This document shows, in pieces, positions 1,721 to 18,766 of a DNA stretch of 47,779 nucleotides. The notes under the pieces were generated by a model. The model had not been told where the DNA came from. It saw only the letters and a program-made list of their open reading frames with translations, and searched no databases. Made by a program: the position numbers and the translations under genes. The DNA comes from Magnetospirillum sp. WYHS-4 (lineage in GTDB: Bacteria; Pseudomonadota; Alphaproteobacteria; Rhodospirillales; GLO-3). The stretch lies in NCBI GenBank assembly GCA_039908345.1, contig JAMOBD010000031.1, positions 1 through 47,779 of the forward strand, read 5' to 3'. Each line of letters opens with the position of its first letter. Position 1 is the first letter of the stretch.

Positions 1721-2324
1721 ATGTCCCTGCAAGCCGACCTCCAGGCGGCCGTCGATCGCGCATCGGCGGCCAGCGCCAAGCTGCACGCCGTCGTCCACGG
1801 CGATGGTGCCAGCACCGTTGAGACCGAGAATGGTCCGATCAAGACGGTCGCCAAGGCCATCGCCGACATCGAAGGCAGCCTGGAGGCAGGGCGGGCGGAA
1901 CTGGACGGTAAGGTCGCGACGGCTGCCGCCAGCGAGGATTCCGCCGCCGCTTCCGAGGCCAAGGCCCGGCAATGGGCCGAGGAGACCGAAGACGCGGAGG
2001 TGGAAACGGGTGCCTTCAGCGCCCGCCACCATGCTCTCAAGGCCTCCGCGCACCGGGAGAAGGCCGAGCGTTGGGCGGAAGCCCCGGTGGACCAGGAGGT
2101 GGAGCCGGATCGCTACAGCGCCCGCCATTGGCGAGCAGGCCCGCCTGTTCGCCAATGGCGGCGCGGAATTTCACGGCCTGACGGTCGGGGACGACGGCTC
2201 GCTCATCTGGACCCACGGCACCGCCGGCAGCTTCGCCGTCGCCGACTTCGACGTCTGGTGGCTGGTGCCGCCTGGCGTCTCCCTCTCCATCGACGAACTC
2301 GGACACCTGGAAGCGAGGATCTGA
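1721..2324 (+). pseudogene. Phage tail appendage protein, frameshifted
   Basis: The first 135 or so codons read as an alanine- and glutamate-rich helical protein with two similar units (ETEDAEVETGAFSARHH and VDQEVEPDRYSARHW), a pattern seen in tail-fibre connector proteins. At about 2128-2133 the frame breaks: the sensible continuation (EQARLFANGGAEFHGLTVGDDG, ending HLEARI) lies in another frame and stops at 2322-2324, overlapping the next gene's ATG. The span is 604 bases, i.e. one base too many or two missing. Without the shift the protein would be about 200 residues. In the present sequence ribosomes would instead run through into the fibre gene in frame. A sequencing error is possible. 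Confidence 0.6.
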
Positions 2325-4081
2325 TGGCCACCATCGATCTCGGCAAGATCCGCCTCGCCTGGCGGAGCGACTACGACCCGGAGGCGGCCTATCGCCCCCT
2401 CGACATGGTGCGCTTCGAGCGCGACCTTTTCATCTGCATCAAGGCCCCGGATGCTCCCGGCACCGATCCGACCAGCACCCAGCACTGGGCGCTGATGGTC
2501 GAGCGCAACGGCTTCTTCTGGCGCGGTATCTGGGACGAGGCGACCGCATACAAACGCAACGACGCCGTCTTCCACGGTCGCTCGTCCTATTTCTGCACCG
2601 CCGATGCTCCCGCCGGCACCCTGCCCACCGATCCCGCCCATTGGACCCTGCTGGCCGAGGGCATCTCGATCACCGTCGATCCGGGCGACCTGATCTTCCG
2701 GGACGCGGACGGGGTGGAGAAACCGCTGTCCGTCGGCGCGCCGGGGCAGGCCCTGATCATCCAGGACGATGGTCTGCCGGGCTATGGCGAGATCGATCTG
2801 CGCAAGCGCAGCCAGTTCGCAGCACCCATCACCGCGCCGCCCTTCACCACGCCCACCGCCGGGCAGTTCATCGGCACCCCGAAGTACCGGGCGGCGGTCG
2901 GCACGCCGACGCTCTTCTGGGAATCCCACGGCCATAACTGGCAGTACATCCTGGGCGACCAGACGCGGGAATACGGCACCGGCAACTGGACCTCCTGGCT
3001 CACCAGCAGCGGCAACTACATGCCGACCGACATCCAGAACCTCGGCTGGTCCGGCGGCTACGGCGGTTTCCCGCAGTACGACAACTGGTACTACATGCAT
3101 GGCCCCACCCAGGGCCAGAACCACGGCCAGCGCACCGGCGCCTGGTCCGGCCATTCCGGCTACCGCTACCGGGTGCCGGCGACGCCCGGCATGCACAACC
3201 GGGTCTTCGTCAACTTCTGCACCGGGAACGGCTGGTGGTGGGGTGTCTTCCCGTTCCTGCTCGACCCCCGCAATGGCTACGCCATCGTCAAGCGCCTGCC
3301 GGCCATGCATCCCCAGACCTGGAGCAACAGCTATCCCACCTGCTCGCTCCAGCTGACCCCCTTCGGGCAGATGCAGTACAGCCAGAACACCGGCAACATC
3401 TGGTGCCATTTCGACCTCCGCAAGGATCTGGTCGATCTGTATTCCGACGACGACGGCTACCTGCACTTCGGCGTCGCCATCCACACCAGCTCGACCGACA
3501 GCGGGTACGTCCGCATGGCGGGCGTCGCCTGCACGCCGGTCCACGATCCCGGCATCGTCACCGAGGGCTACGGCATCTACTACGGCCTGAACGGCTGGTG
3601 GCAATCGGAATGGGTCTGGTGGGGCCACGCCGCCAACCAGTTCGCCTGCGTCCAGTGCGAGAGCAACCGCTACCCCGGCAACACGGTGCGCTATCTCTAC
3701 GCCCCGGTGTTCGACCCCACCAAGGATCTGCTGCTCACCCTGATGGCGCTGAACACCAAGAACGCGGCCAGCACCGGCTACCAGAGCTACGGCGAGCCCA
3801 GCCTGCAGATGATCCCCCAGCATCCCAACACCGGCGCCAACAACAGCTACCGCTACATCGCCCGCGCCGGCTGGTTCAAGTCGGGTCCGACCCTGGACCA
3901 GTTGGAGGCCTGGGGTGTCCTGCAGCCCTTCCAGTACGTGATTCCCAAGGAAGTGGTGCAGGAATGCCTGGGCTACGGCGGCCACGGTGTCGATGACGTC
4001 ATCCGGCTCCAGTGCTCCACCTATTGCGGCTCCAGCGGCTTCGTGATGGTGGGCTACTGGGCCCAACCCCTGGAGGCCTGA
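2324..4081 (+). CDS. Phage tail fibre protein with tandem sugar-binding-like repeats
   Basis: A 585-residue protein starting at an ATG that overlaps the previous stop (TGATG), with GAGG just upstream. Residues about 1-50 and 60-115 form two similar units: W, then a YDPEAAYRPLDMV or ATAYKRNDAVFHG segment, then PGTDPTSTQHW or LPTDPAHW. These resemble the aromatic carbohydrate-binding modules found in phage fibres. The rest is rich in Trp, Tyr, Gly and Asn (for example NGWWWGVF and NGWWQSEWVWWG), typical of a receptor-binding surface. It probably recognises the host cell surface. It lies between tail genes and a small chaperone-like gene, as fibre genes often do. The specific fold of the C-terminal 400 residues is not recognised. 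Confidence 0.7.
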   Translation: MATIDLGKIRLAWRSDYDPEAAYRPLDMVRFERDLFICIKAPDAPGTDPTSTQHWALMVERNGFFWRGIWDEATAYKRNDAVFHGRSSYFCTADAPAGTLPTDPAHWTLLAEGISITVDPGDLIFRDADGVEKPLSVGAPGQALIIQDDGLPGYGEIDLRKRSQFAAPITAPPFTTPTAGQFIGTPKYRAAVGTPTLFWESHGHNWQYILGDQTREYGTGNWTSWLTSSGNYMPTDIQNLGWSGGYGGFPQYDNWYYMHGPTQGQNHGQRTGAWSGHSGYRYRVPATPGMHNRVFVNFCTGNGWWWGVFPFLLDPRNGYAIVKRLPAMHPQTWSNSYPTCSLQLTPFGQMQYSQNTGNIWCHFDLRKDLVDLYSDDDGYLHFGVAIHTSSTDSGYVRMAGVACTPVHDPGIVTEGYGIYYGLNGWWQSEWVWWGHAANQFACVQCESNRYPGNTVRYLYAPVFDPTKDLLLTLMALNTKNAASTGYQSYGEPSLQMIPQHPNTGANNSYRYIARAGWFKSGPTLDQLEAWGVLQPFQYVIPKEVVQECLGYGGHGVDDVIRLQCSTYCGSSGFVMVGYWAQPLEA

Positions 4082-4084
4082 GCC

Positions 4085-4522
4085 ATGCCCATCAACATCG
4101 AACGGAAGGTCGCCGAGGCCGTGAAGTTCAAGGTGGCGGCGGCCAGGTCGCCCTTCGACGATCCGGCGGGGTTCAACTTCACCGTCGCGGCTCCGGTCCG
4201 CACGGTCGAGGACAAGGACGTGGTCGAGCCGGAGGTCTCGGTCTGGGCCATCGAGGGCATCGACGCCCCGGACGCCGGGACCCTGAAGTCCTGGCTGGCG
4301 GAATACGAGGCTCATCTGGAGGCCACCGGATACCGTCGCGCCAGGGCCGCCGCCTATCCGGCCCTGGGCGACCAGTTGGACGCCCTCCTGAAAGGCTTCG
4401 CCGAACTGCGGACACAGGGCGCCACCCTGCCGCCCGACCTCGTCGCGGTGATCGACGTCTGGCAGGCGGTCAAGGCGGCCCATCCCAAGCCGCCTAAAAT
4501 GTCGGACGGTGGCAATGCCTGA
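4085..4522 (+). CDS. Small phage protein following the fibre gene, possible fibre-assembly factor
   Basis: A 145-residue protein starting 3 bp after the fibre gene stop. Its C-terminal third (AAYPALGDQLDALLKGF, then LPPDLVAVIDVWQAVKAAHP) resembles a short domain common in phage proteins encoded next to fibres (the YPSxGDQLDAL pattern, XkdW-like). That domain is often annotated as a tail fibre assembly or attached structural protein. The N-terminal half has a beta-rich character. It overlaps the next gene by 8 bases, so translation is probably coupled. Function is inferred from position and this motif only. Confidence 0.5.
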   Translation: MPINIERKVAEAVKFKVAAARSPFDDPAGFNFTVAAPVRTVEDKDVVEPEVSVWAIEGIDAPDAGTLKSWLAEYEAHLEATGYRRARAAAYPALGDQLDALLKGFAELRTQGATLPPDLVAVIDVWQAVKAAHPKPPKMSDGGNA

Positions 4523-5138
4523 TCCCGCCCTCAGCGAGGCCATCCGCGAGGCCTATGCCTCCGCCCCGGCCGATGTCGTCGTCCTGCACACCCTGGAGAT
4601 CTGGCACCCATCCTTCATCGAGGACGGGGCGCCCAGGCCGATCCGGGTGGTCAGAAACTACGAGGACACGGCCACTTGGCTGGGTCTCGGCGGAGCGGAG
4701 GTTCAGGCTGTCCTGGATGCCCTGGACGCGGAGGCACGGCGCAAGGTCGGGCTGGTGGCCCGGATCGAGGCGGGGGCGGCGCGGGACGCCGGCCTGCTGG
4801 TGCCGTTCGTGGCACTGGGCTTCGAGATGGAGTTGCCGCCGGTGGACACCATCCCGGTGCCGGAGATCGTGGTGACGCTGGACAATGTCGGGCGCGAGAT
4901 CACCCGCCACCTGGACGCCGCCGCCGTCAGCCAGGACGCCATCCAGGTCACCTACCGGCCCTATCTCTCGACCGACATCGAGGGGCCGCAGATGGACCCG
5001 CCGCTGACCATGACCCTGTCCGAGGTCGAGGTGGACGTGTTCCGGGTCACTGGCCGGGCGCGGGTGCTCGACATCGGCAACAAGGCCTTCCCCAGCGACA
5101 TCTACACCATCAGGAAATATCCGGGACTGCGACGATGA
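4515..5138 (+). CDS. DUF1833-family phage tail protein
   Basis: A 207-residue protein of the DUF1833 type found in lambda-like minor tail clusters. Features are an acidic N-terminal helix, then VVLHTLEIWHPSF, a central VPFVALGFEMELPP segment, and a C-terminal domain ending in DIYTIRKYPGL. Members sit directly before an NlpC/P60 tail gene, as here, and are thought to form part of the tail tip. A GTG at 4509 in the same frame is an alternative start; neither has a strong ribosome binding site, because the start lies inside the previous gene. The stop overlaps the next start (ATGA). Confidence 0.65.
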   Translation: MPDPALSEAIREAYASAPADVVVLHTLEIWHPSFIEDGAPRPIRVVRNYEDTATWLGLGGAEVQAVLDALDAEARRKVGLVARIEAGAARDAGLLVPFVALGFEMELPPVDTIPVPEIVVTLDNVGREITRHLDAAAVSQDAIQVTYRPYLSTDIEGPQMDPPLTMTLSEVEVDVFRVTGRARVLDIGNKAFPSDIYTIRKYPGLRR

Positions 5139-5584
5139 TTCTTGAATTGGCGCCGGCCGCCCTGAGCCAACCCCGGCGCGGGCATTGGGCATCCGAGTAT
5201 ATCGGCCTGCCGTGGTCCGCCACGGGGGAAGGGCCGGACTCGTTCCATTGCTGGGCGCTGGTGCGCCATGTGCAGCGGCAACGGTTCGGCCGCGACCTGC
5301 CGGCCATCCCCAACCCGGACGACCTGCTCGCCATCGCCAGGGCCTTCCGCGACCACCCGGAGCGCCGACGCTGGGATCTGGTCGAGGTTCCCGAGGAAGG
5401 TGACTGCGTGCTGATGCGACAGGCCCGCTATCCCGTCCATGTCGGCGTCTGGCTGGGCGTGGACGGCGGCAAGGTGCTGCATGTCGTCCGCGACAAGGGC
5501 GTGGTCGCCCAAGCCCGCGACAGCCTCGCCGCCCATGGCTGGCGGATCGAGGGCTTCTACCGCTTCATCGGAGACCGTCCCTGA
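5135..5584 (+). CDS. NlpC/P60-family phage tail assembly protein
   Basis: A 149-residue NlpC/P60-like cysteine peptidase. The catalytic cysteine is in FHCWALVRHV (about residue 39) and the histidine in YPVHVGVWLG (about residue 101), with the usual spacing for this fold. In lambda-like phages the protein K relative acts during tail assembly or peptidoglycan penetration by the tail tip. It overlaps the preceding DUF1833 gene by four bases and is followed 20 bp later by the J-like tip gene, the standard order for this module. Confidence 0.75.
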   Translation: MILELAPAALSQPRRGHWASEYIGLPWSATGEGPDSFHCWALVRHVQRQRFGRDLPAIPNPDDLLAIARAFRDHPERRRWDLVEVPEEGDCVLMRQARYPVHVGVWLGVDGGKVLHVVRDKGVVAQARDSLAAHGWRIEGFYRFIGDRP

Positions 5585-5604
5585 CCCGTCCCGCCACAAT
5601 CGTC

Positions 5605-7920
5605 ATGGTCCACAATGCGCTCAGGCCCGAGCGCGACCGCAGGGTGATGCCGGTGTTGAAGCCGGTCACCATCCGGGGCTGGCTCGACGGCCAGGGGATC
5701 GCCGAGTTCGCCCAGCCGACCATCTGTCTGGTCAACGGCCGCGCCGTCTTGCGGGCCGAATGGTCCGTGCTGGTGATCCGTGCCGGCGACGTGGTCTGTT
5801 TCGTGGCGCTTCCCCACGGTGGTGGTGGCGGAGGCGGGGGCGGCAAGAACCCGCTCCGCACCGTGCTCATGGTCGCCGTCATGGTGGCCGGCATGGCACT
5901 TGGTGCCGCTTATGGCGGGGCTTTGGCCGGGAGCTTCGGCTTCGAGGGCGGGGCGGCGGCCTTCGGCTCGGTCACCTGGGGGCAGGTGTTCGGTGGCGTC
6001 ATCTCGGGCGCGGTCAATCTGGTGGGCGGCGCCCTCATCAACGCCCTGGTTCCGGCTCCCAGCCCCTCGCGGCCCTCGGCCGATTGGGGCCTGGGCAGCA
6101 TCGGCAGCCCGCCCAGCCCGAGCCCGACCTATTCCCTCCAGGCCCAGGGCAACCAGGCCCGGCTTGGCCAGCCCATCCCGGTGATCTACGGCCGCCATCT
6201 GGTCTATCCCGACTTGGCCGCCGAGCCTTGGTACGAGTACGCCGACAACGAGCAGTACCTGCACCAGCTTCATGTCATCGGCCAGGGCCACTACGACCTG
6301 GAGGCCATCCGCGTCGAGGACACCGACATCGGCAACTTCGCCGAGGTCGAGGTCGAGATCGTCGAGCCGGGCGGTGCCGTCACCCTGTTCGATCCAAACG
6401 TCACCTCGGCGCCAGAGGTGGCCGGCCAGGAACTGACCGCGCCCAATGATCTGGGGAGCGGCGAGACCGGCTGGATCGGACCCTTCGTCTCGGCGTCGGC
6501 CGAGACCACCGCCACCCGGATCGGCATCGATATCGTCTTCGCCCGTGGTCTCTACTACGCCAACGATTCCGGAGGGCTGGATACCCGCTCCGCCAGTTGG
6601 GTGGTCGAGGCTAGGCTTATCGACGACGACGGCCTGGCCATCGGCGCCTGGCAGCAGTTGGCCTCGGAAAGCCACTCGGCAGCGACCAACACGCCGATCC
6701 GGCTGAGCTATCATTACGCCGTGGCGCCGGGCCGCCATGAGGTCCGCCTCAGGCGCACCGACAACAAGGACACCTCGTCGCGCGCCGGCCACGAAATCCG
6801 CTGGGCGGGCTTGAGCGCCTGGCTCCAGGACGAACCCGACTATGGGCCGGTGACCCTGCTCGCCATCCGCATGCGGGCGACCGACAACCTGTCCCAGCGC
6901 ACCTCGCGTCTGATCAACTGTGTCGTGACGCGCAAGCTCCCGGTCTGGTCCCAGGCAGGATGGTCGGCACCGCAGCCGACCCGATCCATCGCCTGGGCCT
7001 TCGCCGACGCAGCCCGAGCCGAGTACGGAGCGGAACTGGCCGATGCCCGGATCGATCTGGCCGGGCTGCTGGCTCTTGATGACGTTTGGGAAAACCGGGG
7101 TGACCACTTCGACGGCGTGTTCGACACCTCCATGACGGTATGGGAGGCGCTGACCCGCATCGCCCGTTGCGGCCGGGCCGTGCCCATCCAGCAGGGCGGT
7201 ATCGTGCGGATCGTTCGCGATGGACCGCAGAGCCTGCCGGTCGCCCTGTTCGGGCCGCGCAACATCGCCAAGGGGAGTTTCCGCATCCGCTATGTCATGC
7301 CGGGGGAGGAGACCGCCGACGCGGTGACGGTGGAATACTTCTCGGCCCGCACTTGGCGGCCCGACGAGGTCACCGCCAAGCTGCCGGACTCCGCCGAGGA
7401 GAAACCGGCCCGCCTCCAGCTCACCGGCTGCACGGACAAGGATCACGCCCAGCGCGAAGGCCTCTACATGGCCGCCGCCAACCGCTACCGGCGCAAGCTC
7501 GTCACCTTCCAGACCGAGTTGGAGGGGCTGATCCCCACCTATGGCGACCTGATCGCCATCGTTCATGACATGCCCCGCTGGGGCCAGGGTGGCGAGATCG
7601 TCGGCTGGGACGGGGAGACCCTGACCGCCTCCGAGCCGCTGGAATGGGCGGACGGCCCCCACTACCTGGCGCTCCGCCGGGCCGACGGGGCCATCGCCGG
7701 CCCCTATCCGGTGGTCCCCGGCGAGACCGACTACGCGGCGGTGCCGCAGGCCCCCCTCGACATCGAGCCCTACACCGGCGGCGAGGCCGAACGCACCCAC
7801 TACGCTTTCGGCCCATCGGATGCCTGGAGTCTGTTTGCCCGCGTGCTCGCCATCCGGCCGCGCGGCGAGCGGGTCGAGATCACCGCCGTCGGCGAGCACG
7901 ACGCCGTGCATGTGAACTGA
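5605..7920 (+). CDS. J-like tail tip / host-specificity protein
   Basis: A 771-residue protein matching the host-specificity (J-like) tip proteins of siphoviruses. Near residue 72 there is a run of nine glycines, then a hydrophobic glycine/alanine-rich helix region (about residues 85-160), then the QARLGQPIPVIYGRH segment that marks the start of the tip domain in this family. Later parts include SRLINCVVTRKLPVW and a TSMTVWEALTRIARCGRA segment typical of the phage-tail-3 type fold. It probably forms the tip of the tail and contacts the host. It sits between the NlpC/P60 gene and the holin genes. A start upstream of 5605 is unlikely because no in-frame start lies close by. Confidence 0.75.
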   Translation: MVHNALRPERDRRVMPVLKPVTIRGWLDGQGIAEFAQPTICLVNGRAVLRAEWSVLVIRAGDVVCFVALPHGGGGGGGGGKNPLRTVLMVAVMVAGMALGAAYGGALAGSFGFEGGAAAFGSVTWGQVFGGVISGAVNLVGGALINALVPAPSPSRPSADWGLGSIGSPPSPSPTYSLQAQGNQARLGQPIPVIYGRHLVYPDLAAEPWYEYADNEQYLHQLHVIGQGHYDLEAIRVEDTDIGNFAEVEVEIVEPGGAVTLFDPNVTSAPEVAGQELTAPNDLGSGETGWIGPFVSASAETTATRIGIDIVFARGLYYANDSGGLDTRSASWVVEARLIDDDGLAIGAWQQLASESHSAATNTPIRLSYHYAVAPGRHEVRLRRTDNKDTSSRAGHEIRWAGLSAWLQDEPDYGPVTLLAIRMRATDNLSQRTSRLINCVVTRKLPVWSQAGWSAPQPTRSIAWAFADAARAEYGAELADARIDLAGLLALDDVWENRGDHFDGVFDTSMTVWEALTRIARCGRAVPIQQGGIVRIVRDGPQSLPVALFGPRNIAKGSFRIRYVMPGEETADAVTVEYFSARTWRPDEVTAKLPDSAEEKPARLQLTGCTDKDHAQREGLYMAAANRYRRKLVTFQTELEGLIPTYGDLIAIVHDMPRWGQGGEIVGWDGETLTASEPLEWADGPHYLALRRADGAIAGPYPVVPGETDYAAVPQAPLDIEPYTGGEAERTHYAFGPSDAWSLFARVLAIRPRGERVEITAVGEHDAVHVN

Positions 7921-7931
7921 AGGAGACAGCC

Positions 7932-8258
7932 ATGGTCTGGCGCAATCTGCCCCCCGAGATGCAGCACACCCTGGTCGGGCTGGCCTGGGCCGTGTGGTGG
8001 GCCCTGATCGGGCGCGGCCTCTATCACGCCGACCTGGTCCGCAAGGGACGGCGGCGCTTCTGGTCCCTGCAACTGGCCTGGGAGCTGATGATCGCCATCG
8101 GCATGGGCGTGGTGGCCGGGGGTGCCGCCGAGTACCTGCAACTCGGGGGCATGGCGGCGGCCGGCTTCATCGCCGCAATCTCCTATCTCGGCCCGCGCAC
8201 CATCGAATTCGTACAAGCATGGGCGGAACGCAAGGCCGGCATCGACGGAACGCAGTGA
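7932..8258 (+). CDS. Phage holin-like membrane protein
   Basis: A 108-residue protein with a clear ribosome binding site (AAGGAGACAGCC before the ATG). It has three hydrophobic stretches: around residues 12-28 (VGLAWAVWWALIGRGL), 46-66 (LAWELMIAIGMGVVAGG) and 72-88 (GMAAAGFIAAISYLG). Its charged linkers and size fit a phage holin of the LydA-like kind, which makes holes in the inner membrane so that the endolysin can exit. It follows the tail tip gene and precedes a terminator. Its last codons lie in a 31-bp repeat shared with position 119-149. Confidence 0.6.
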   Translation: MVWRNLPPEMQHTLVGLAWAVWWALIGRGLYHADLVRKGRRRFWSLQLAWELMIAIGMGVVAGGAAEYLQLGGMAAAGFIAAISYLGPRTIEFVQAWAERKAGIDGTQ

Positions 8259-8272
8259 ACGCGTAGCGGACA
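8242..8272 (-). repeat. 31-bp interspersed repeat, copy 2 (3' end of holin-like gene)
   Basis: This is the inverted copy of the 119-149 repeat. It covers the last six codons and the stop of the holin-like gene and runs 14 bp into the spacer. Read on the minus strand it would encode SATRSLRSVDA, almost the same peptide as copy 1 encodes. Confidence 0.6.
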
Positions 8273-9748: not shown

Positions 9749-10471
9749 TCAGAATCTGAGTTCCTGCCATTCCACGGTGACCGCCTTGAAGCCGTCGCGC
9801 TCGCCGTTGCGACCGTTCCAGATGGCGAAGGCGACGGGATAGACAGTGCCCTTGCCGCCCTTGCCGAAGGTGACGGCATCCGTGCCGGCGGGAGCCAGTT
9901 CCCGGCGGATGACCACCGTCCACTGGCCCTTGGCGTAACGGCCGGAGGCCTTGACCGTGGCTGCCGGATTGGGCGTCAGGGTGCCGGTGCCGTTGGCCAG
10001 CAGGTTGGCCCCGCCGTTGGTCGTCGCATTCCAGTGCCAGACGTCGACATGGCGCCCCTCGCCACCCATGAGAATATTCGTTCGGGTATCACCGTCCGAG
10101 GCGAACTGGACGGCGGCGCCATCGACGAACCTGCCCGGACCACGCGCGGCGTCGGCGCCATCGTCCTTCCAGCGCAGCCGGAACAGCAGATCCTTGCCGC
10201 TGCGCGCCGCCTGGACGGTGACGCGCGTGGTGACCGCCTCCCCCTGGATCGCCGGATGGATGGAAGGCGCGGTGGTCAGTTCGATCTCGGTCGCCGGCAC
10301 CTTCGCCCAGGCGGCGGCATCGACATCGCGTTCGCCCAGCGGCTCCTCGACGGTAGCCACTGGGACGCCCGCGGGCTTGGTCTCGGCGGTCAGGGCCGGC
10401 ACCGGCGCCGTCAAGGCGACGAATGCCAGACCGGCCCAAAGAAGGGCAAAGCGGCGAAGCGGGAAGGTCAT
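9749..10471 (-). CDS. Type II molybdoenzyme gamma subunit (haem-binding)
   Basis: A 240-residue secreted protein of the ethylbenzene-dehydrogenase/DMS-dehydrogenase gamma type, which binds one b-type haem and passes electrons from the iron-sulfur subunit. It has a signal peptide (residues about 1-29, FALLWAGLAFVALTAPVPALTAE). Family segments include KDLLFRLRWKDDGAD, the DGAAVQFA strand, VDVWHWNATTNGG and the end-piece VYPVAFAIWNGRNGERDG. The start overlaps the end of the chaperone gene (ATGA). It is the last gene before the terminator. It appears intact, unlike alpha and beta. The substrate cannot be told from this subunit. Confidence 0.85.
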   Translation of the reverse strand: MTFPLRRFALLWAGLAFVALTAPVPALTAETKPAGVPVATVEEPLGERDVDAAAWAKVPATEIELTTAPSIHPAIQGEAVTTRVTVQAARSGKDLLFRLRWKDDGADAARGPGRFVDGAAVQFASDGDTRTNILMGGEGRHVDVWHWNATTNGGANLLANGTGTLTPNPAATVKASGRYAKGQWTVVIRRELAPAGTDAVTFGKGGKGTVYPVAFAIWNGRNGERDGFKAVTVEWQELRF

Positions 10472-11097
10472 GGTCTTGCTCCTTCGACAAGGGCTTCCGC
10501 GGCGACGCCCGGCGGCGATGGCGCGGAACCGAGGGCGGCTTCGAGGTCATCAAGATGGCCGGAAACGAGGCGGTCGAGCCAGCCCGCCAGGCGGCGGTAA
10601 TCCGAGGCCAGGCCCCGCCGGTCCATCCGGGTGCAGAGTTCGGGAACCCAGCGCGCCAGATGGCGGGCCAGGAAATCGCGCTGGGCCAGACGGAACGGCG
10701 AGGCGTCGCGTCCGTCCGCCCGCGCCTTTTCCTCCAGGACTAGCAGATGGCCCATGAATTCCAGTTCGGCGGACAGGTGGTCTGGAAAGTCGCGCGTCTC
10801 GCCGCTCAGGCGCAGGCCGAAGAAATGGTAGAAGCGCAGCAAATCCTCCTGGATACCCTCGCGCCCCTCCTTGTCGAGGCAGAGCCCTTCGTAGAGGGGC
10901 ACGCCCCCGGTCTCGAAGGAGGCCAGGTATTCGGCCTCGCGCTCTTCCGGGGAAAGGCGATCCAGCGTCGCCTCCAGGCGCGCCTGGCCGATGGACGCCC
11001 AGAAGGCCGCTTCCGGGTAATCGAAGGCCCGGGCCAGGATTTGGTAGATCCTGGCCAGCGCCGTCGTGTCCGCCAAGGCTTGCCGCGCGCCGCTCAT
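10468..11097 (-). CDS. TorD-family chaperone (delta subunit) of the molybdoenzyme
   Basis: A 209-residue helical protein of the TorD/NarJ/DdhD group, which helps insert the molybdenum cofactor into the catalytic subunit and is not part of the mature enzyme. Visible family features are ARIYQILARAFDYP at the N-terminus, the YEGLCLDKEGREG segment, and DHLSAELEFMGHLLVLEEKA, which carries the conserved E-F-M core. The start at 11097 overlaps the native stop of the beta gene (ATGA). Because of the frameshift in beta, the present sequence joins beta and this gene in one frame, but the independent start and family boundaries show they are two genes. Confidence 0.8.
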   Translation of the reverse strand: MSGARQALADTTALARIYQILARAFDYPEAAFWASIGQARLEATLDRLSPEEREAEYLASFETGGVPLYEGLCLDKEGREGIQEDLLRFYHFFGLRLSGETRDFPDHLSAELEFMGHLLVLEEKARADGRDASPFRLAQRDFLARHLARWVPELCTRMDRRGLASDYRRLAGWLDRLVSGHLDDLEAALGSAPSPPGVAAEALVEGARP

Positions 11098-12039
11098 ATC
11101 TTGAACCTGTCGGCCGAGGTGTAGCCGATGAGAAGGTCGGTCAATTCCGACGGCTTGGCCTCGCGGCGCTTCTGCATTTCCGTTCCCAGGGTCTTCAGGC
11201 TCGATGGGAATGCGGGGCTTGTCGCCCAGGCGCCCATCCTCCTCGAAAAGCGGCGGCGTGGTGTTGATCGGCGGCACGTAGAAGACATTGGGCTTGGTGC
11301 CGTATTCGGCGTGCAGCGGCAGGGCCACCTTCCATTTGTCGACCAGCTTGTACACCGGGCCGTCCTTGTCATCGCGGTAGCTGACGAAACGGATGCGGCC
11401 GACGCACTGCGCCGAACAAGCCGGGATCGTCCCCTTCTCGACGCGGGGGTAGCAGCCGATGCATTTCTCCGAGGTATTGGTCTTGGTATTGAAGAAGACC
11501 TTGCCGTAGGGACAGGCCTGAACGCAGTACTGATAGCCCCGGCAGCGCTCCTGGTCGACCACCACCAGACCGTCCTCGGGCCGCTTGTAGATGGCTTGGC
11601 GCGGACAGCCGGCCAGACAGGCCGGATTGGAACAGTGGTTGCAGATACGCGGCAGGTAGAAATAGTGATTGTTGGGGAACTCGCCCTGCCCCTCGTCCTC
11701 GTCCCAGTTGGGGCCCCAGGTCGGTTTCTGGTCGGGCACGACGCGATCGCCCTTGCCGTCCAGCAACACCTCCTGGAAGTTATATTCCCATACGCCGCCA
11801 TAGTCTTCCCGGGGCGGTATCCGGCCGTCGGGGCGCAGATTGGCGGCCGCGTCGAAGCCGCCGCCCTTCTGCTCCCAGTTCTTGGGGTAGCCCTTGCCGG
11901 GGCGGGTTTCCACGTTGTTCCAATACATGTACTCGCGGCCGTCGCGGTTGGTCCACAGCTGCTTGCAGGCCATGGTGCAAGTGTGGCAGCCGATGCATTT
12001 GTTGAGGTCGAACACGAAGGCCAGTTGCCGATTCGCCAT
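11094..12039 (-). pseudogene. Type II molybdoenzyme beta subunit (iron-sulfur), frameshifted near C-terminus
   Basis: The reading frame from 12039 encodes a NarH/DdhB-like electron-transfer subunit with four cysteine clusters: CIGCHTCTMAC, CNHCSNPACLAGC, CRGYQYCVQAC and CIGCYP with CSAQC. These hold one 3Fe-4S and three 4Fe-4S centres in the family. At about 11196-11205 the frame breaks after KPRIPIE. The native end (LKTLGTEMQKRREAKPSE, then LLIGYTSADRFKI) is in another frame and stops at 11094-11096, overlapping the chaperone start. The span is 946 bases, one extra or two missing. The ribosome binding site AAGGAG overlaps the alpha stop. Apart from the last 35 or so residues the protein looks complete; a sequencing error cannot be ruled out. 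Confidence 0.75.
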
Positions 12040-12269
12040 GGGACCTACTCCTTGACCTTTTCGATGTCGACCGTCGTCTCATAGAAGATGCGGTTCGGAT
12101 TGAAGCCGCCGGAGGCGTACTTGATGTGGCCGTAGCCGCCCACCAGCTCCAGAGGGTTGATAAGTTCGGCGTTGATCATGTTGTAGTGGGTCATCTTGTT
12201 GTAGAGGTACTGCTCCCAGCCGTGCTCGGAGAAAACCTGGTCCTCCGGCAGCGCCGGCCAGCAGGGGAT

Positions 12270-13285
12270 TCCCAAGGGTGGCGAAATCTGATTCAAGATA
12301 GGGGCTGGTGAAGGAGGCCAGCCTCTATGACAGCACCTCTTTCCAAGGATCTTCGCAAACGGCTGGTGTCTGCGGTCGAGAATGGCCAATCCCGGAGGGC
12401 GGCGGCCGGACGGTTCGGGGTAGCGGTATCGACGGCGGTCAAGTGGGTGAACCAATGGCGCCGGGAGGGTCGTATTGAGGCGAGGCCCCTGGGGGGTGAC
12501 CGGCATTCGCATCGTATGGAGGCCCATGCCGAGGAAATCCTGGCGCTGATAACAGAGACGCCGGATATGACCTTGGCCGAGATCGCCGGCCACCTGGAGA
12601 AAGCTCATGGGCTCCATGTTGCCCAGAGCACGGTCTGGCGCCTTCTGGACCGCCACGACCAGACGTTCAAAAAAAACCGCGCACGCAAGCGAACAGCAAC
12701 GGCCTGACGTCCGGCGGCGGCGCGAAGCCTGGTTCGAACTTCAACCGGATTTTGAGCTCGAGCGCCTTGTGTTCATCGACGAGACCGGCGCCAGCACCAA
12801 GATGGCCCGGCTGCGTGGCCGAGCACCGCGTGGCGAACGCTGCCGCGCCCCCATACCTCACGGCCACTGGAAGACCACCACCTTCGTCGGCGCTCTCCGG
12901 TTGGAGGGCATGACGGCGCCGATGGTCCTGGACGGCGCGATGAACGGCCCCGCCTTCCTGGCATATGTGGAACAGGTTCTGGTGCCGACCCTGTCGCCGG
13001 GCGACATCGTCGTCATGGACAATCTGCCTGCCCACAAACCGACATCCGTGCGCGAGGCCATCGAGGCGGCAGGTGCCGAGCTGCGCTTCCTGCCGCCCTA
13101 CAGCCCCGACTTCAACCCTATCGAGATGGCCTTCTCCAAACTCAAGAGCTTCCTCAAGAAAACGGCCGCCCGAACCAAGGACGATCTATGGGACGCCATC
13201 GGTCGCGGCATCGATACCTTTACCCAGGCCGAGTGCCAAGCCTACTTCGCTGCTGCCGGTTATGATCGCGATTGAGCGGAAAATG
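12270..13285 (+). mobile_element. IS630-family insertion sequence
   Basis: The element interrupts the alpha-subunit gene and carries one DDE transposase read in two frames. The two flanks read as the same alpha gene on the minus strand. Imperfect inverted repeats can be aligned at 12281-12295 and 13263-13277 (9 of 15 matching). The exact ends and the TA target duplication expected of IS630 could not be confirmed, so the borders are good only to about 15 bases. Confidence 0.75.
12327..13275 (+). CDS. IS630-family transposase, two overlapping frames joined at an A8 tract
   Basis: The N-terminal frame (12327-12707) has a helix-turn-helix of the IS630 type ([20 protein letters not shown]) and a second DNA-binding part. 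The C-terminal frame ends at 13275 and has the DDE catalytic core: Asp in [10 protein letters not shown], Asp in [10 protein letters not shown] and Glu in [11 protein letters not shown]. The frames meet at eight A residues (12669-12676). Adding one A by transcriptional slippage, or a +1 shift, gives [13 protein letters not shown], the usual joint in the family. This is a known expression control in IS elements, so the gene may be functional. AAGGAGG precedes the start by 8 bases. Confidence 0.85.
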
Positions 13286-15080
13286 CTCTCGCCGATGTCA
13301 TTGAAGATCCGCACCATGTCGCCGTCCTTGATGCCCTTCTTCGCCATCGCCTTCGGATTGAGGCAGACATCCGGCTCGCCGCGCTGATGGCGCAGCAGCC
13401 ATTTCTCGTTGCGGCACCATGAATGGATGCCCCAGCGGGTGTGCGGCGAGTTGGTCTTGAAGGGGAAGCGCTTCGGGCCGATGTGGCCACCCTTGACCTG
13501 GGGCTTCGGGACCGTCGCATCGAAGCGCTGGAACCAATCATGATCCACGTAGAACTGCAGCCGCCCGGTCAAGGTTCCGTAAGGCTTCTTGTCGGAGACG
13601 TTCATCGTGAAGGGACGGTAGGGCTTGTCCTTGGGCACCGGCCCCGTCTTGCCGGCCTCCGGGCCGACGGCGACGAAGCCACTCTTCATCACTTCCTCGT
13701 AGGTGCCGGGACCGAGCGCCTTGGATTTCTCCATGACGAAGCGCAACGCGGCCTCGTCCGATTCGACGGCGCCGTTCATGGTGAAGTCGTCGTAGATGGT
13801 GTTGAAGTCGATGGCGCTCTTGATCTCCGGATCCTCGACCCGGGTGACGCCGCGCGCCCTGGCCCGCTCCTGGATCTTCTTGGCCAGCGCCACGTTGATC
13901 TGCCAGTCCGTCTTGCGCTCGTACATCGGCTTGACCGGCTGCCCGAAAGCGTGGATGAAGCGCGTCACCGATGTCTCGCGGATGTCCAGCTTCTGCTGCT
14001 CGGGTGCGGCGGGCAGCACGATGTCGGCGTACATGGCGCCTGAATTGAGGCGGAAATCCACCACCACCAGCAGCTCGCAGCGCTTGAGGAAGTTCTCCGC
14101 CAAGTGCTGGTAGCCGACGGAGGTGGCGAAGAGGTTGATGCCGCCGTTGATGTAGACCACCGGGTCCTTGATGGATTGCCACTTGGGCATCCAGCCCTTG
14201 GCCTCGGACTCCTTGCGCAAGGTCTCCATGTCGTCGACGCCGAAGCCGATCTGCTCCTTCAGCTGGGTGTCGTCGTAATAGGCCTTGGTGCGCCGGTACT
14301 GCTCTCCCCAAACCCACTGGGCCAGCACCATGGAGACGCTGCGGCCGGGGTTGTCCTTCACCCGGCCCAGTTCGGCGTTGCCCTCCAGCCGCCAGCCCTC
14401 GTAGGTGGTGTCGATGGAGCCGGTGGTGCCGTGGTGGCCGATCAGGGTGAGGATCAGGATCTTCAGCCGTCCGCACTGGAAGCCGTCCATGTGCTTCTGG
14501 TTGTTATAGCCGTCGAGGATGCGCAAGGCCTTGCATTCGGCGATCCAGCCGGCCAGCTTGCGCACCACGGAGGGATGCACGCCGGTGGCCGCCTGTGTGG
14601 CCTCGGGCGTGTAGGGAGCGATGGCGGCCTTGAGCCGCTCGAAGACGGTGGTGACCTTGACGCCCTCGGCGTCGAAGGTACCTTCCAGGGCGGGATCGAC
14701 CTCGCCCAGCTTCAGGGTCTTGTCCTTGGAACCCATGCTGCCCGGCGCCGGCACCGCCTTGCCGGTCTTGGTGTCCCACACATAGAAGACCTGATCGTTG
14801 CCGTCCGCCTTGAAGTCCTTCTCGCGCAGGAACTTGCCGTTGTCGAGGCGCACCAGGAAGGGTAGATCCGTCTGCTCCTTGAGGTAATCCGCCTTGTAGT
14901 GCCTGCCGGCGATCAGCAGGTTGACGATTGCCGCCGCAAGATGGGAGTCGGTGCCCATCTTCACCGGCACGAACAGGTCTGCATGGACCGACGACGGATT
15001 GTAGTCGGCGGAGAGCCGTCGCCGAATCCAGCACCGTGGTGGCCGAACGATTCATGACCTCCCCCGCCATATCGGTCGCC

Positions 15081-15118
15081 TTATTCAACATTTTCATTGA
15101 ATAACGGCGGCGCGTCAA
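15081..15118 (-). promoter_or_regulatory. Promoter with overlapping inverted repeat upstream of the alpha gene
   Basis: A perfect inverted repeat, TTATTCAA-N8-TTGAATAA (15081-15104), lies in a locally AT-rich gap between the ArsR-rhodanese gene and the alpha start. On the minus strand TTGACG (15118-15113) and GAAAAT (15095-15090), 17 bases apart, could be the -35 and -10 boxes, so the -10 sits between the arms. The ATTC/GAAT ends recall operators of ArsR-family sulfur sensors, though the spacing differs. Binding by the neighbouring regulator is inferred. Confidence 0.6.
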
Positions 15119-15185
15119 TAGCGCACTACGAGGCGGCGCGAAAAAAGCCTTCGCGCATGGAATATTGTTTAATGATGACATATGG

Positions 15186-15851
15186 TTACGGCGTGACCTC
15201 GACCGGCAACCCCTGGGATCGCCATTCCGGGAAGCCCTGCTCCAGGCGGCGTGCGCGGTAGCCCTTCTTGCGCAACAAGGCGACCGCGTCGTAGGCGAAC
15301 AGGCAGTATTCGCCCCGGCAATAGGCGACGATCTCCACGTTCTTCGGCAGGTCCTTGAGCCGGCGCATCAGCGCCCGGATCGGCAGGTTGACGGCCCCCG
15401 CGATGTGGCCGGACTGGAATTCGTCCTCGGGACGGACATCGAGGACCAGCACCTCATGGTCCCGCATGCGCTGCATCAGTTCCAGGCGGGATACCGGCTC
15501 CATGCCGTCGCGGTCCTTGAGATAGCCGTCGACGAGGTTCTGGATCTCCTGGCGGTGGCGTCGCCCCGTCACTCGCAACGCCTCCATCAGGGGGAGGATA
15601 TCCTCGCCCGACAGTCGATAGAGAATCTGGGTGCCGTTGCGCCGCGTCGAAACCATGCCGGCTTGGCGCAGGTGCTGGAGATGTTGCGACGCGCTGGCCA
15701 CGGACATGGAGGCCGCCTCCGCCAGGCGCTCGACGCTTCGCTCGCCCTGGGCCAAGATATCGAGAAGATAGACCCGGTGAGGGCTCGCCAGCGCCTTGCC
15801 GACGGCCGCGAACTCATCCAGCAGGATCTGCTTCTCGCGCGAACGGGCCAT
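15186..15851 (-). CDS. ArsR-family transcriptional regulator fused to a rhodanese domain
   Basis: A 221-residue two-domain regulator. Residues about 10-95 are an ArsR winged helix: ASPHRVYLLDILAQGERSV, then the recognition helix MSVASASQHLQHLRQAGMV and the wing NGTQILYRL. Residues about 115-215 are a rhodanese domain with the DVRPEDEFQSGHIAGAVNLP core and an active loop CRGEYC whose first cysteine could form a persulfide. Fusions of this type are thought to sense sulfur species or act with sulfur transfer. The gene is co-directional with the molybdoenzyme operon, about 130 bp upstream of the alpha start, with an inverted repeat in between. It appears intact. Confidence 0.85.
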   Translation of the reverse strand: MARSREKQILLDEFAAVGKALASPHRVYLLDILAQGERSVERLAEAASMSVASASQHLQHLRQAGMVSTRRNGTQILYRLSGEDILPLMEALRVTGRRHRQEIQNLVDGYLKDRDGMEPVSRLELMQRMRDHEVLVLDVRPEDEFQSGHIAGAVNLPIRALMRRLKDLPKNVEIVAYCRGEYCLFAYDAVALLRKKGYRARRLEQGFPEWRSQGLPVEVTP

Positions 15852-15916
15852 GTCCGGATGCCCACCACTCTCCCGCCGGACGGTCTCCGGCGCTCACGTC
15901 GCCCGCGATAGCATAT

Positions 15917-15954
15917 CCGCCGCCGGATCGTGAAGAGGAAAAATCCGGCGGCGG
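15917..15954 (-). terminator. Hairpin downstream of the FecR/PKD gene
   Basis: A perfect 12-bp stem (CCGCCGCCGGAT with ATCCGGCGGCGG) with a 14-base loop begins 7 bp past the stop of the leftward FecR/PKD gene. No T run follows, so it is only a likely transcript end. Confidence 0.45.
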
Positions 15955-15961
15955 TTCACCC

Positions 15962-16894
15962 TCAGCAGCCGCAATCGGCCTCTACCGAGATGCCGATCTG
16001 CGCCGAGGCCTTCTCGCCATTCTGGTCCTCGATTCGCAGGATGACCACGTAGACACCCTGGGTGAAGGTGTGCTCCGCCTCGCGGGAGGTGGCGCTTTCC
16101 CCGTCGCCGAAATCCCAGGTGATGGACTTGATCTTGCCGCTGCCGCCGGAAATCCGGGCCTTGAAATTCACGGCGTAGGGGGTATTGCCGCGCCGCCCCT
16201 TCAGGCCGCCGATCTTGACGGTCAACTTGCCGCCGGTGGCCGCCGTCTCCTCTTCGACGAGCAAGCTGCCGCCCAGATCCTTGGACACCTTCTTCAGGGA
16301 TTGCTGGATGTTGTCCGGGGTCGGGATCACGTCCGGCTTGGCGTTCGCCCGAAGGGTGCCCTGCTGTCCATCGTCGATGCGGATGCGCTCGGTACCAACG
16401 TCGGAAACCAGGCGCCCCAGCAGCGACCAGGCGGTGGCGCTGGTGGCGGCCGGATCGTACTTCACCCCGTATTCCGCGCCCTGGGCCCGCAGGTTCAAGC
16501 TGCCCATGCGGACCTTGAAATCGGCGAACAGGTTCTCGGGAACCTGGGCCTTCACGAACAGACGCCCTTTCTCCAGGTCGAGGACCGTCTTCTCCATCTT
16601 GCGTTCCAGATCGAAGGTCACGCCAGCCAACATCAGCTCGGCCTCCGGGTAGACCTTGACCATGCTGCCGTTCGACCAGATGAGCAGCGCGCCCGACTTC
16701 TCCGCCGTCCGCAGGCGCTCGCCCTGCCCCAGAATGTCGCCTTCCTTGGCCGGCCGCCAGGGCTGTTCTCCCTTGCGGATATCGACGGTGCCGTCGCTCT
16801 GGGTGAGCCGGACCGTCGTCTCCTGCGCCTTGGCGTATCCGGCCCAGCCCAGGAGGGATACCGCGACAAGGGCCTTCAGCAGTTGATTGCGCAT
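15962..16894 (-). CDS. Secreted FecR-domain protein with a C-terminal PKD domain
   Basis: A 310-residue exported protein: signal peptide at residues 1-23 (LLGWAGYAKAQ), then a FecR-like beta domain at about residues 28-170 (WRPAKEGDILGQGERLRTAEKSG and GRLFVKAQ). A PKD domain follows at about residues 220-305, with the hallmark ITWDFGDGESATS and VYVVILRIEDQNG. Unlike true FecR it has no inner-membrane helix, so it probably works in the periplasm or at the outer membrane. It ends in DCGC, an unusual cysteine pair. It lies 25 bp after the stop of a truncated outer-membrane protein gene, with GAGGAAAATC before its ATG, so the two were once one operon. The partner and substrate are unknown. Confidence 0.75.
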   Translation of the reverse strand: MRNQLLKALVAVSLLGWAGYAKAQETTVRLTQSDGTVDIRKGEQPWRPAKEGDILGQGERLRTAEKSGALLIWSNGSMVKVYPEAELMLAGVTFDLERKMEKTVLDLEKGRLFVKAQVPENLFADFKVRMGSLNLRAQGAEYGVKYDPAATSATAWSLLGRLVSDVGTERIRIDDGQQGTLRANAKPDVIPTPDNIQQSLKKVSKDLGGSLLVEEETAATGGKLTVKIGGLKGRRGNTPYAVNFKARISGGSGKIKSITWDFGDGESATSREAEHTFTQGVYVVILRIEDQNGEKASAQIGISVEADCGC

Positions 16895-16919: not shown

Positions 16920-17137
16920 TCAGAACTTGAATTCGCCGCCGATCACCAGTTCGAAGGCATTGCTGCCGTCGCCGCCGTTGGACTGGGCGTAGACATCGCC
17001 GGGCATGAAGTAGCCGACGTTCATGAACAGATCGAGGTTCTTCATGAGGGGATAGGTCATGTTGAGATCGACCTCCCAGCCGATGTCGTTGGTCGTCTCC
17101 AGGCTGGTGGAGGTGCCTCGGCTCCAGTCGCCGACTG
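16920..17137 (-). pseudogene. Outer-membrane beta-barrel protein, C-terminal fragment
   Basis: The last 70 or so codons of an outer-membrane protein remain: GDWSRGTSTSLETTNDIGW, an amphipathic strand VDLNMTYPLMKNLDLFMNVGY, and the end FELVIGGEFKF. Alternating residues and a terminal Phe are the signature recognised by the BAM machinery. Upstream of about 17137 the similarity stops, and the sequence becomes a rightward cysteine-desulfurase remnant. No start codon or signal peptide can belong to the fragment, so it is not a functional gene. Confidence 0.65.
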
Positions 17138-17144
17138 GTCCTCG

Positions 17145-17310
17145 CCCCCGATGGCCCTCGGCGGTCCTGACCGCCATGGGACTGGCGGAGGAGGAGGCGC
17201 TCGGCGCCGTCCGCCTGTCGCTGGGACGCAGGACCAGCCGGCAGGCACCGCCGCCGCCCACCGCTGCTCGGTGGAAACGGGTCCTGGCTGGGCTGATCCC
17301 CGGCCGGTGA
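17145..17310 (+). pseudogene. Cysteine desulfurase (NifS/IscS-like), C-terminal remnant
   Basis: About 50 codons match the very end of NifS/IscS-type cysteine desulfurases: SAVLTAMGLAEEEALGAVRLSLGR corresponds to the family's SHVLxAMGxxxxxAxGxxRxSLGR helix, and RWKRVLAGL to the last helix. The residues in between (SRQAPPPPTAA) do not fit, so a small frameshift is likely. The active-site part is missing because the fragment abuts the truncated outer-membrane gene at about 17137-17150. This appears to be a dead remnant left by recombination. Confidence 0.55.
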
Positions 17311-17479: not shown

Positions 17480-18475
17480 CTATCCGAGCCGATCCGCCAG
17501 CTTCTCCGCCTCGAAATGGGTGTAGCGCTTGAGCATCTGCAGGGTCTTGTGTCCCGTGACCGAGGCCACTTCCATGATACCCCAGCCGCGCTCAAAGAGG
17601 CGGCTGGTGGCCTCGTGCCGGAGATCGTGGAACCGTAGCCCCTCGATCTTTGCCCGCCTTGTGGCGGCCCGGAAGGCCGTCACGACGCCATCCTGCCGGA
17701 CGGGGAACACCCGCCCGTCGAGGGAGCGCGGAAGTTCGTCCAGCGCCGCCCGAGCGCGGCTGGACAGCGGCACATCGCGGCTCGTGCCGTTCTTCGAGTC
17801 GGGCAGATGCGCGACCCGTCCCCGGACGTTCGGCCACTGCAGGGCGAGCAGTTCGCCCTGCCGCATGGCCGTTTCAAGGGCGAGGATCACCATGGGCGCC
17901 AGCCAGTAGGAACCGCTGTTCCGGCAGGCGGCGAGGAGGCGTTCCTCCTCGTCGTCGGCAAGCCGGCGATCCCGCCCTTGGCGGAGGCTCGGCATCCGGA
18001 CGCCGAGGATGGGATTATGCAGTCCCTCCATGTTCCATTCGCACCGGGCGGTCTCGTAGACTTGGCTGATGATGGAGGCGAGGTTCCGGATGGTGGTCGG
18101 CGCCTTCCCGGCTTCCACGAGTTCGTTCCGCCATTCGGCGACATCGGCGCTCCGGAGGTTGGCGAGGGAGTATTTTGCCAGTTGCGATCCTCGAAGCCGG
18201 AGGATGCGCGAGGCTTCCTGGCGTGCCCCCTTCTTGCTCGGGGTCACCTCTTCGCCGTAGCGCTTCAGGGCTTCCCCGAGGGTGGTGGCTTCCGCCTCGG
18301 TGCGGGACACGAAGGTGCCGCGCTTCATCTGGGTCTCGATATCGGTGGCCCACTCCTTCGCAGCGCTCTTCGTGTCGAAAACCCGTGACTGGCCGGGGAA
18401 CCCTTTGATCCGGACCTTGGCCTGCCAGCCGATCAACTTGCCTTCGCGATTGGTCCTCGGGGTGATCGTCGCCAT
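17480..18475 (-). CDS. Tyrosine site-specific integrase next to tRNA-Ser
   Basis: A 331-residue phage-type integrase with an N-terminal arm-binding part, a SAM-like core-binding domain (about residues 65-150) and a catalytic domain. Catalytic residues are visible: Arg in ALETAMRQGELLALQW, H-x-x-R in FHDLRHEATS, His in TGHKTLQMLKRY and the nucleophile Tyr in the same segment. Its start at 18475 was chosen because MATITPRTNREGKL matches the usual N-terminus, while the longer reading runs over the tRNA. The gene starts 117 bp from the 3' end of tRNA-Ser and points away from it, the classic layout for integration into a tRNA 3' end. It appears intact, but the borders of its element were not found. 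Confidence 0.9.
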   Translation of the reverse strand: MATITPRTNREGKLIGWQAKVRIKGFPGQSRVFDTKSAAKEWATDIETQMKRGTFVSRTEAEATTLGEALKRYGEEVTPSKKGARQEASRILRLRGSQLAKYSLANLRSADVAEWRNELVEAGKAPTTIRNLASIISQVYETARCEWNMEGLHNPILGVRMPSLRQGRDRRLADDEEERLLAACRNSGSYWLAPMVILALETAMRQGELLALQWPNVRGRVAHLPDSKNGTSRDVPLSSRARAALDELPRSLDGRVFPVRQDGVVTAFRAATRRAKIEGLRFHDLRHEATSRLFERGWGIMEVASVTGHKTLQMLKRYTHFEAEKLADRLG

Positions 18476-18591
18476 GGCCAAATCCTCCGGATTTCGGGCC
18501 GAAACTATCCCCCAAGTGTCCCGCAATTGTCCCGCAAAATCAAGAAGCCGCCCGAGAGGGGCGGCCCTGATTGCGGCTAAGCCATTGAAAT

Positions 18592-18683
<92 letters not shown>

Positions 18684-18766
18684 GCAGAGGCAGCGCGTGC
18701 CAAGTGGCAAGGGGTGTCTTGTACAGACCGCAAGGGGGGCCTGTCAACGGAACCTCACCCTTCGCC

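Follow-up and report, generated by a model that had tools for sequence, protein, structure and literature searches.

The stretch of DNA analysed, referred to here as the window, comprises 47,779 nucleotides of contig JAMOBD010000031.1 from Magnetospirillum sp. WYHS-4. On its minus strand, an intact ORF at 15186–15851 encodes a 221 aa regulator in which an ArsR-type domain is fused to a rhodanese domain. Pfam HTH_5 (PF01022) was matched at residues 23–68 (38.3 bits, cut-off 22) and Pfam Rhodanese (PF00581) at residues 124–212 (68.7 bits, cut-off 22.2), and the NCBIfam model HTH_metalloreg (NF033788) scored 74.1 bits against a cut-off of 55, placing the protein in the ArsR/SmtB family. The best PDB match of the ArsR half (residues 3–101) was 2kko/3gw2 (E 8e-22), which we take to be the ArsR domain of the mycobacterial ArsR-rhodanese protein Rv0324. 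A collection scan with the regulator protein returned one weak match, to residues 14–92 only. The rhodanese loop, C178-R-G-E-Y-C183 (CRGEYC, residues 178–183), is encoded at 15303–15320 on the minus strand and contains the sole cysteines of the protein. The first of these, C178, is presumably the catalytic rhodanese cysteine, as judged from the fold. The rhodanese domain accordingly retains its active-site-loop Cys, with sulfurtransferase activity and persulfide formation being putative properties.

The regulator was examined within a set of 68 full-length ArsR-rhodanese genes, made up of 41 genes in 35 of 199 genomes (order sample), those of 11 further genomes (class sample, 289) and 16 from plasmids. 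A hold-out set of 27 regulator genes was obtained from a phylum-wide search of 398 genomes. Both C178 and C183 were invariant (68/68), and the pair was present with identical spacing in 27/27 hold-out proteins. No cysteine beyond the loop pair was present in 45 of the 68 proteins, so that any sensing cysteine would be one of the rhodanese pair. The window regulator retained 50 of 52 near-invariant family positions, the exceptions being 53 and 66; residue 53 is S, compared with N in 64/68 proteins. The genome contains a second full-length ArsR-rhodanese gene, a paralog on contig C51 that is 50% identical to the window regulator.

Downstream of the regulator gene, a perfect inverted repeat, TTATTCAA-N8-TTGAATAA (in full TTATTCAACATTTTCATTGAATAA), was located at 15081–15104 with arms matching at 8/8 positions; it has no strand of its own and is the proposed operator. 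An earlier note had described such a repeat beside an ArsR-rhodanese gene, and this was borne out. The core ATTCAA-N8-TTGAAT, which is the proposed operator pattern of the family, occurs exactly at 15083–15102. As the regulator and enzyme genes both lie on the minus strand, the repeat is 3' of the former and 5' of the latter. The exact full repeat was a single copy in the 3,654,842-base genome, and at ≤3 mismatches one copy was found in the window, where dinucleotide-preserving shuffles gave 0.01 on average. No operator copy was seen in the 400 bp preceding the window regulator, the best match there having 4 mismatches.

A putative sigma70-like promoter, TTGACG (15118–15113), 17 bp, GAAAAT (15095–15090), spans 15090–15118 on the minus strand and matches the consensus at 9/12 positions. 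It was the sole promoter match within 14900–16000 (shuffle mean 0.2) and reads toward the molybdoenzyme genes. The same note had described the repeat as overlapping a likely -35/-10 pair ahead of the molybdoenzyme operon, which was confirmed: the repeat covers the -10, in the operator centre, and part of the spacer, while the -35 lies outside. No terminator was called within 14900–16000, and an Rfam scan of 14800–16100 at the gathering threshold gave no RNA family. An FNR/CRP box (TTGAT-N4-ATCAA, the consensus given in the available text of PMC7349173) was considered for the repeat and rejected, its half-site and spacing being different by eye. Separately, a perfect 12-bp inverted repeat, CCGCCGCCGGAT-N14-ATCCGGCGGCGG, was seen at 15917–15954 between a FecR gene and the regulator, with no terminator called there.

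Downstream of the repeat, on the minus strand, lie the remains of a ClrA/SerA-like type II DMSO reductase operon. The alpha relic at 13288–15015 covers residues 265–840 (numbering of the ortholog in genome G464), and a C-terminal piece at 12054–12263 covers residues 847–916; between them is a plus-strand ORF of an IS630-family transposase (12607–13275; profile positions 111–298 of 299). Alpha residues 1–264 were not found. The beta subunit (10468–12039) has a frame change near 11200 and reads on into the delta (chaperone) subunit, and the gamma (heme b) subunit at 9749–10471 is an intact ORF (TIGR03477, 178.2 bits, cut-off 169.85). All four subunits of a ClrABDC/SerABDC-type enzyme were thus recognised, alpha being incomplete and split and beta frameshifted, and the operon is a relic of a ClrA/SerA-like enzyme. 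The regulator has outlived the broken enzyme, with its ORF intact and its near-invariant positions kept as above.

Over the matched parts, identity to the Ideonella dechloratans proteins was 83% for the relic alpha (against ClrA) and 79% for beta. The available text of PMC12724226 gives 83.6% identity between ClrA and the Thauera selenatis protein SerA, and on that figure a chlorate and a selenate reductase are indistinguishable for the window enzyme. Two further type II alpha subunits are encoded in the genome on contig C5. On contig C79 (L152, 3390–7798), a chlorite-dismutase-family gene adjoins type II-like alpha and beta genes with open ORFs, a possible (per)chlorate locus. On contig C123 (L078, 4589–4708), a 40-residue piece is 82.5% identical to the C-terminus of the window gamma subunit and represents a second copy or a fragment.

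Directly upstream of the regulator, 15962–16894 encodes a FecR/PKD-domain protein whose start resembles a signal peptide, followed by a truncated-looking ORF (~16920–17261) and a phage-type integrase ORF (17480–18733) beside a tRNA-Ser(GCT) gene (18592–18683). This pairing of integrase and tRNA gene suggests that an integrated element contains or adjoins the regulator and relic operon. A run of phage-tail-like ORFs (by eye) at 1721–8266 adjoins the relic operon.

The best match to ATTCAA-N8-TTGAAT was then scored in the 400 bp upstream of each regulator gene. Among the 68 genes, 29 had an exact core, 50 a core at ≤1 mismatch and 57 at ≤2 mismatches, compared with 0, 0.02 and 0.54 in shuffles; the hold-out set gave 10, 16 and 23 of 27 genes (shuffles 0, 0.01 and 0.4). 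Related loci are included in both sets, and the counts are therefore not independent. Spacers of 2–16 other than 8 gave no exact match and at most 4/68 at 1 mismatch, and in the hold-out set spacers of 4–12 other than 8 gave none exact and at most 1/27 at 1 mismatch. With 2 mismatches allowed, 21, 17, 14 and 11 of the 68 genes were matched at spacers 3, 4, 16 and 12, respectively, compared with 57 at spacer 8. A site at ≤1 mismatch was missing from the 400 bp upstream of 18/68 genes, the window regulator included, and of 11/27 hold-out genes. Of the four plasmid copies from actinobacteria, three (L137, L138 and L139) had a best upstream match with 4 mismatches. In Deinococcus (L136), the regulator has no directly upstream site, and an exact site heads the metallo-beta-lactamase and MFS genes that precede it.

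Within the genome of WYHS-4, two sites were found at ≤1 mismatch (reversed control 0), each adjoining one of the two full-length ArsR-rhodanese genes. The second, with 1 mismatch, is centred ~33 bp upstream of the paralogous gene. At 2 mismatches there were 21 sites, compared with 5 for the reversed pattern. Across the order sample, an exact site was present in 25 of the 35 genomes that carry a full-length regulator and in 49 of the 164 that lack one (Fisher p 1e-5, hand count); the total was 108 exact sites versus 19 for the reversed control pattern (control hand-counted). Of 66 upstream sites, 32 were overlapped by a sigma70-like promoter on either strand, compared with 4.8 with shuffled flanks, and 34 by none. 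The -10 of these promoters frequently touches or falls inside the site, which fits a polymerase-blocking repressor.

The earlier note had named absence of the repeat beside orthologous regulators as the outcome that would count against it. The repeat was present at ≤1 mismatch upstream of 50/68 and 16/27 genes, and the order regulator, operator, molybdoenzyme recurred at three more loci, so the repeat behaves as the operator of the regulator family. Taken as a pattern in sequence, these data strongly suggest that ATTCAA-N8-TTGAAT is the operator of the ArsR-rhodanese family, with binding as the predicted consequence.

The first of the three loci, in genome G464 of the same order, comprises a regulator 62% identical to that of the window, a 1-mismatch site, a Crp-like gene, a transposase fragment and open alpha, beta, delta and gamma genes, the alpha being 82% identical. 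In genomes G371 and G347, a regulator and a 1-mismatch site are followed by two small secreted-looking ORFs, a thioredoxin-like gene, a two-domain rhodanese and type II alpha, beta and gamma genes; these alpha subunits are of a different type II kind, 39% and 37% identical, respectively, to the window alpha. The run of secreted-looking ORFs, thioredoxin-like, rhodanese and type II genes occupies 5247–12407 in L147 and 5052–11968 in L148, and the gamma ORF ends cytochrome c-like (by eye). The substrate of the L147/L148 molybdoenzyme is possibly a sulfur compound.

Type II subunits were searched for in 95 regulator loci, whose fetched extents were 2.2–47.8 kb, many with ~1.5 kb per side. As far as these loci were fetched, such subunits were found at the window, L081, L147 and L148; a more distant molybdoenzyme (25–36% identity) was seen at L085. 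A site lay ≤250 bp 3' of the regulator stop for 5/95 genes, including all 4 that precede type II molybdoenzyme genes, and 4/95 loci end sooner. The fifth 3' site, in genome G289, precedes hydroxylase-like, flavoprotein-like and DsrE-like ORFs (by eye).

An alpha matching that of the window (E ≤ 1e-60) was present in 9 of the 199 order-sample genomes, 4 of which have the regulator close upstream. The chance of this 4/9 co-location was ~1e-7 under a crude random-placement model that assumes independence, the genomes forming two related pairs. In the phylum-wide set, the alpha model at E ≤ 1e-100 matched 1/398 genomes, the window's own. A tree grouped the window with G464 (100/97) and G371 with G347 (100/96). 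As these two pairs stand apart in the tree, two recruitments to type II molybdoenzymes fit best. It had also been proposed that the fused domain senses the substrate or product of the lost enzyme. As stated, that idea found no support: the regulator occurs in 35/199 genomes and the alpha in 9/199, with both together in 4, so that most order-sample regulators are apart from this enzyme.

Predicted ORFs starting near operators, 78 in total, were assigned to families. FA_hydroxylase was the commonest (26), followed by TauE (7), metallo-beta-lactamase (6), MFS (5), DsrE (4) and rhodanese (4); the alpha relic of the window is counted among the 78, as are antisense ORFs that are unlikely to be genes. 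Among the best 25 of 40 families there was no arsenic or cadmium efflux family. Ten of the ORFs were scanned singly, and two carried VTT with rhodanese domains. A single reading frame linked to an operator (L087, 8136–10025) fuses FA_hydroxylase, VTT and rhodanese domains, which hints that the FA_hydroxylase-type membrane protein belongs to sulfur handling. We know of no established sulfur role for FA_hydroxylase, and its place as the commonest neighbour is the weakest point of the sulfur-signal reading. According to the available text of PMC12423496, targets of sulfane-sulfur-responsive ArsR proteins are TauE, persulfide dioxygenase, rhodanese and SQR genes. From the invariant loop Cys and the TauE- and rhodanese-type neighbours, we infer that sulfane sulfur on C178 would lower DNA affinity. 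The ArsR-rhodanese switch probably controls sulfur-handling genes, and these patterns make sulfur the likely signal. Sulfur control through the rhodanese loop, suggested in the earlier note, thus gains indirect support from both cysteines being invariant and from several sulfur-handling families near operators.

The regulators BigR, SqrR, SoxR and sHdrR share the ArsR fold with the window regulator. TauE and rhodanese, which are among the targets of such regulators (PMC12423496, available text), account for 7 and 4 of the 78 operator-near ORFs, beside 26 for FA_hydroxylase. In BigR/SqrR, the Cys pair comes from helix alpha2 and from alpha5/C-terminal extension of the ArsR fold (PMC8960804, available text), whereas the ArsR domain of the window regulator contains no Cys. 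Membership of the BigR/SqrR group was rejected on this feature and on a score of 55.1 against a cut-off of 155 for the BigR equivalog NF040642. The window regulator may work like BigR/SqrR without belonging to them. The SqrR operator is ATTC-N8-GAAT, a spacing of 8, whereas ATTC and GAAT are 12 apart in the window. RexT, a redox-sensing ArsR regulator, also combines ArsR-family membership and Cys-based sensing, the latter predicted for the window regulator, with an inverted repeat starting ATTC; its operator, given as ATTCG-N15-CGAAT in the available text of PMC8960804, differs from ATTCAA-N8-TTGAAT. Rv0324 has been reported for bedaquiline tolerance (PMC9480834, available text), and no sulfur ligand or operator was found for it in the literature accessible to the search. 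Like the window locus, the chlorate-reduction transposon of I. dechloratans (clrABDC, cld, arsR) carries an ArsR-family gene, and its cld is FNR-activated, as described in the available text of PMC7349173. The annotated Ideonella arsR is an unfused gene of 128 codons downstream of clrABDC, whereas the window regulator is fused to rhodanese. The 16.6-kb Ideonella stretch held no operator at ≤1 mismatch and one at 2.

ArsR-type repressors act as dimers, and the symmetry of the site fits this. With an intact fusion, an operator beside relatives, a promoter-like overlap, loop cysteines and recurrence at molybdoenzyme loci all observed by computation, we consider it probable that the window regulator is a promoter-blocking repressor released when its rhodanese cysteine takes up sulfane sulfur, both DNA binding and ligand being predictions. 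An ArsR-type dimer would bind ATTCAA-N8-TTGAAT across the -10 of the ClrA/SerA-like operon promoter, and the bound repressor would exclude RNA polymerase from the molybdoenzyme genes; repression rather than activation is the presumed mode. Sulfane sulfur from polysulfide, thiosulfate or a low-molecular-weight persulfide would then pass to C178 of the fused rhodanese domain, and C178 and C183 would together form a persulfide or a Cys-Sn-Cys bridge. Either product would lower DNA affinity, and the promoter would open. As the controlled enzyme is broken in this genome, the switch would be a leftover, or would act at the second site, which adjoins the paralogous regulator gene.

The two invariant loop cysteines could instead serve a thiol redox sensor. 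Oxidants, for example chlorite or hypochlorous acid arising close to a chlorate reductase, would then join C178 to C183 in a simple disulfide, and no sulfur would be transferred. Enzymes related to the broken one are chlorate or selenate reductases, and a thioredoxin-like gene lies downstream in G371, both in keeping with such a sensor. It is nevertheless unlikely, as the loop sits in a rhodanese domain well over the Pfam cut-off (68.7 vs 22.2 bits), TauE, DsrE and metallo-beta-lactamase families are among the operator-near ORFs and most order-sample regulators do not adjoin such an enzyme.

The repeat might also be bound by another protein, either the C51-encoded paralog or an ArsR lacking the fusion, rather than by the product of the adjacent gene. 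Cross-binding is plausible given the 1-mismatch site of the 50% identical paralog, and S53 of the window regulator departs from the N of 64/68 proteins. Against this, the site adjoins ArsR-rhodanese genes in many genomes and lies between regulator and operon in three others, and we rate a different binder as slightly less likely still than the redox sensor.

Selenium was considered in place of sulfur, with the rhodanese cysteine taking selenium from selenite or selenide and so coupling selenate reduction to expression. The 83% identity of the alpha to ClrA and the 83.6% between SerA and ClrA (PMC12724226, available text) make a selenate reductase possible, and genome G464 gave no chlorite-dismutase match. 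However, most order-sample regulators do not adjoin such an enzyme, and the operator-near ORFs indicate sulfur over selenium, leaving this sensor improbable.

A classical ArsR/SmtB metal or metalloid sensor with a non-sensing rhodanese tail would agree with the HTH_metalloreg score, with the annotation of plasmid copies as 'metalloregulator' and with some metal-related neighbours, namely a copper P-type ATPase (Roseibium), a heavy-metal-associated protein (Agrobacterium) and MerT (Methylobacterium). The metal-sensing members ArsR, CadC, SmtB and CmtR have ligand cysteines in the ArsR domain, although not all metal-sensing ArsR proteins use Cys. No such cysteine ligands are present in the ArsR domain of the window protein, its CmtR equivalog score was 39 against a cut-off of 150, and arsenic and cadmium efflux were absent from the best 25 of 40 operator-near families; a metal sensor is accordingly very improbable. 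Finally, a chance repeat or functionless insertion scar, which the neighbouring pseudogene with a transposase inside might suggest, is scarcely credible in light of the shuffle mean of 0.01, the two own-genome sites each beside a regulator and the 50/68 relatives, and the hold-out result (16/27) makes chance very unlikely.

Returning to release of the repressor by sulfane sulfur, we give roughly even weight to the broader proposal of a distinct class of sulfur-responsive repressors, made up of the ArsR-rhodanese proteins and extending across phyla. Its sensor would be a sulfurtransferase active site, CRGxYC, and most members would read ATTCAA-N8-TTGAAT. On at least two occasions, members of the class would have come to place type II molybdoenzymes under sulfur control: once those of the chlorate/selenate-reductase type, and once another type accompanied by thioredoxin-like and rhodanese genes of its own. 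A literature search that reached few subscription papers yielded no publication describing an operator or a ligand for ArsR-rhodanese proteins. Proteins that commonly carry the functionally vague label 'metalloregulator ArsR/SmtB family transcription factor', plus a rhodanese tail, gain from this analysis a defined operator and a predicted signal, and the operator motif would allow the targets of the regulator to be read from sequence. A link is suggested between sulfur state and the expression of chlorate/selenate-type respiratory molybdoenzymes.
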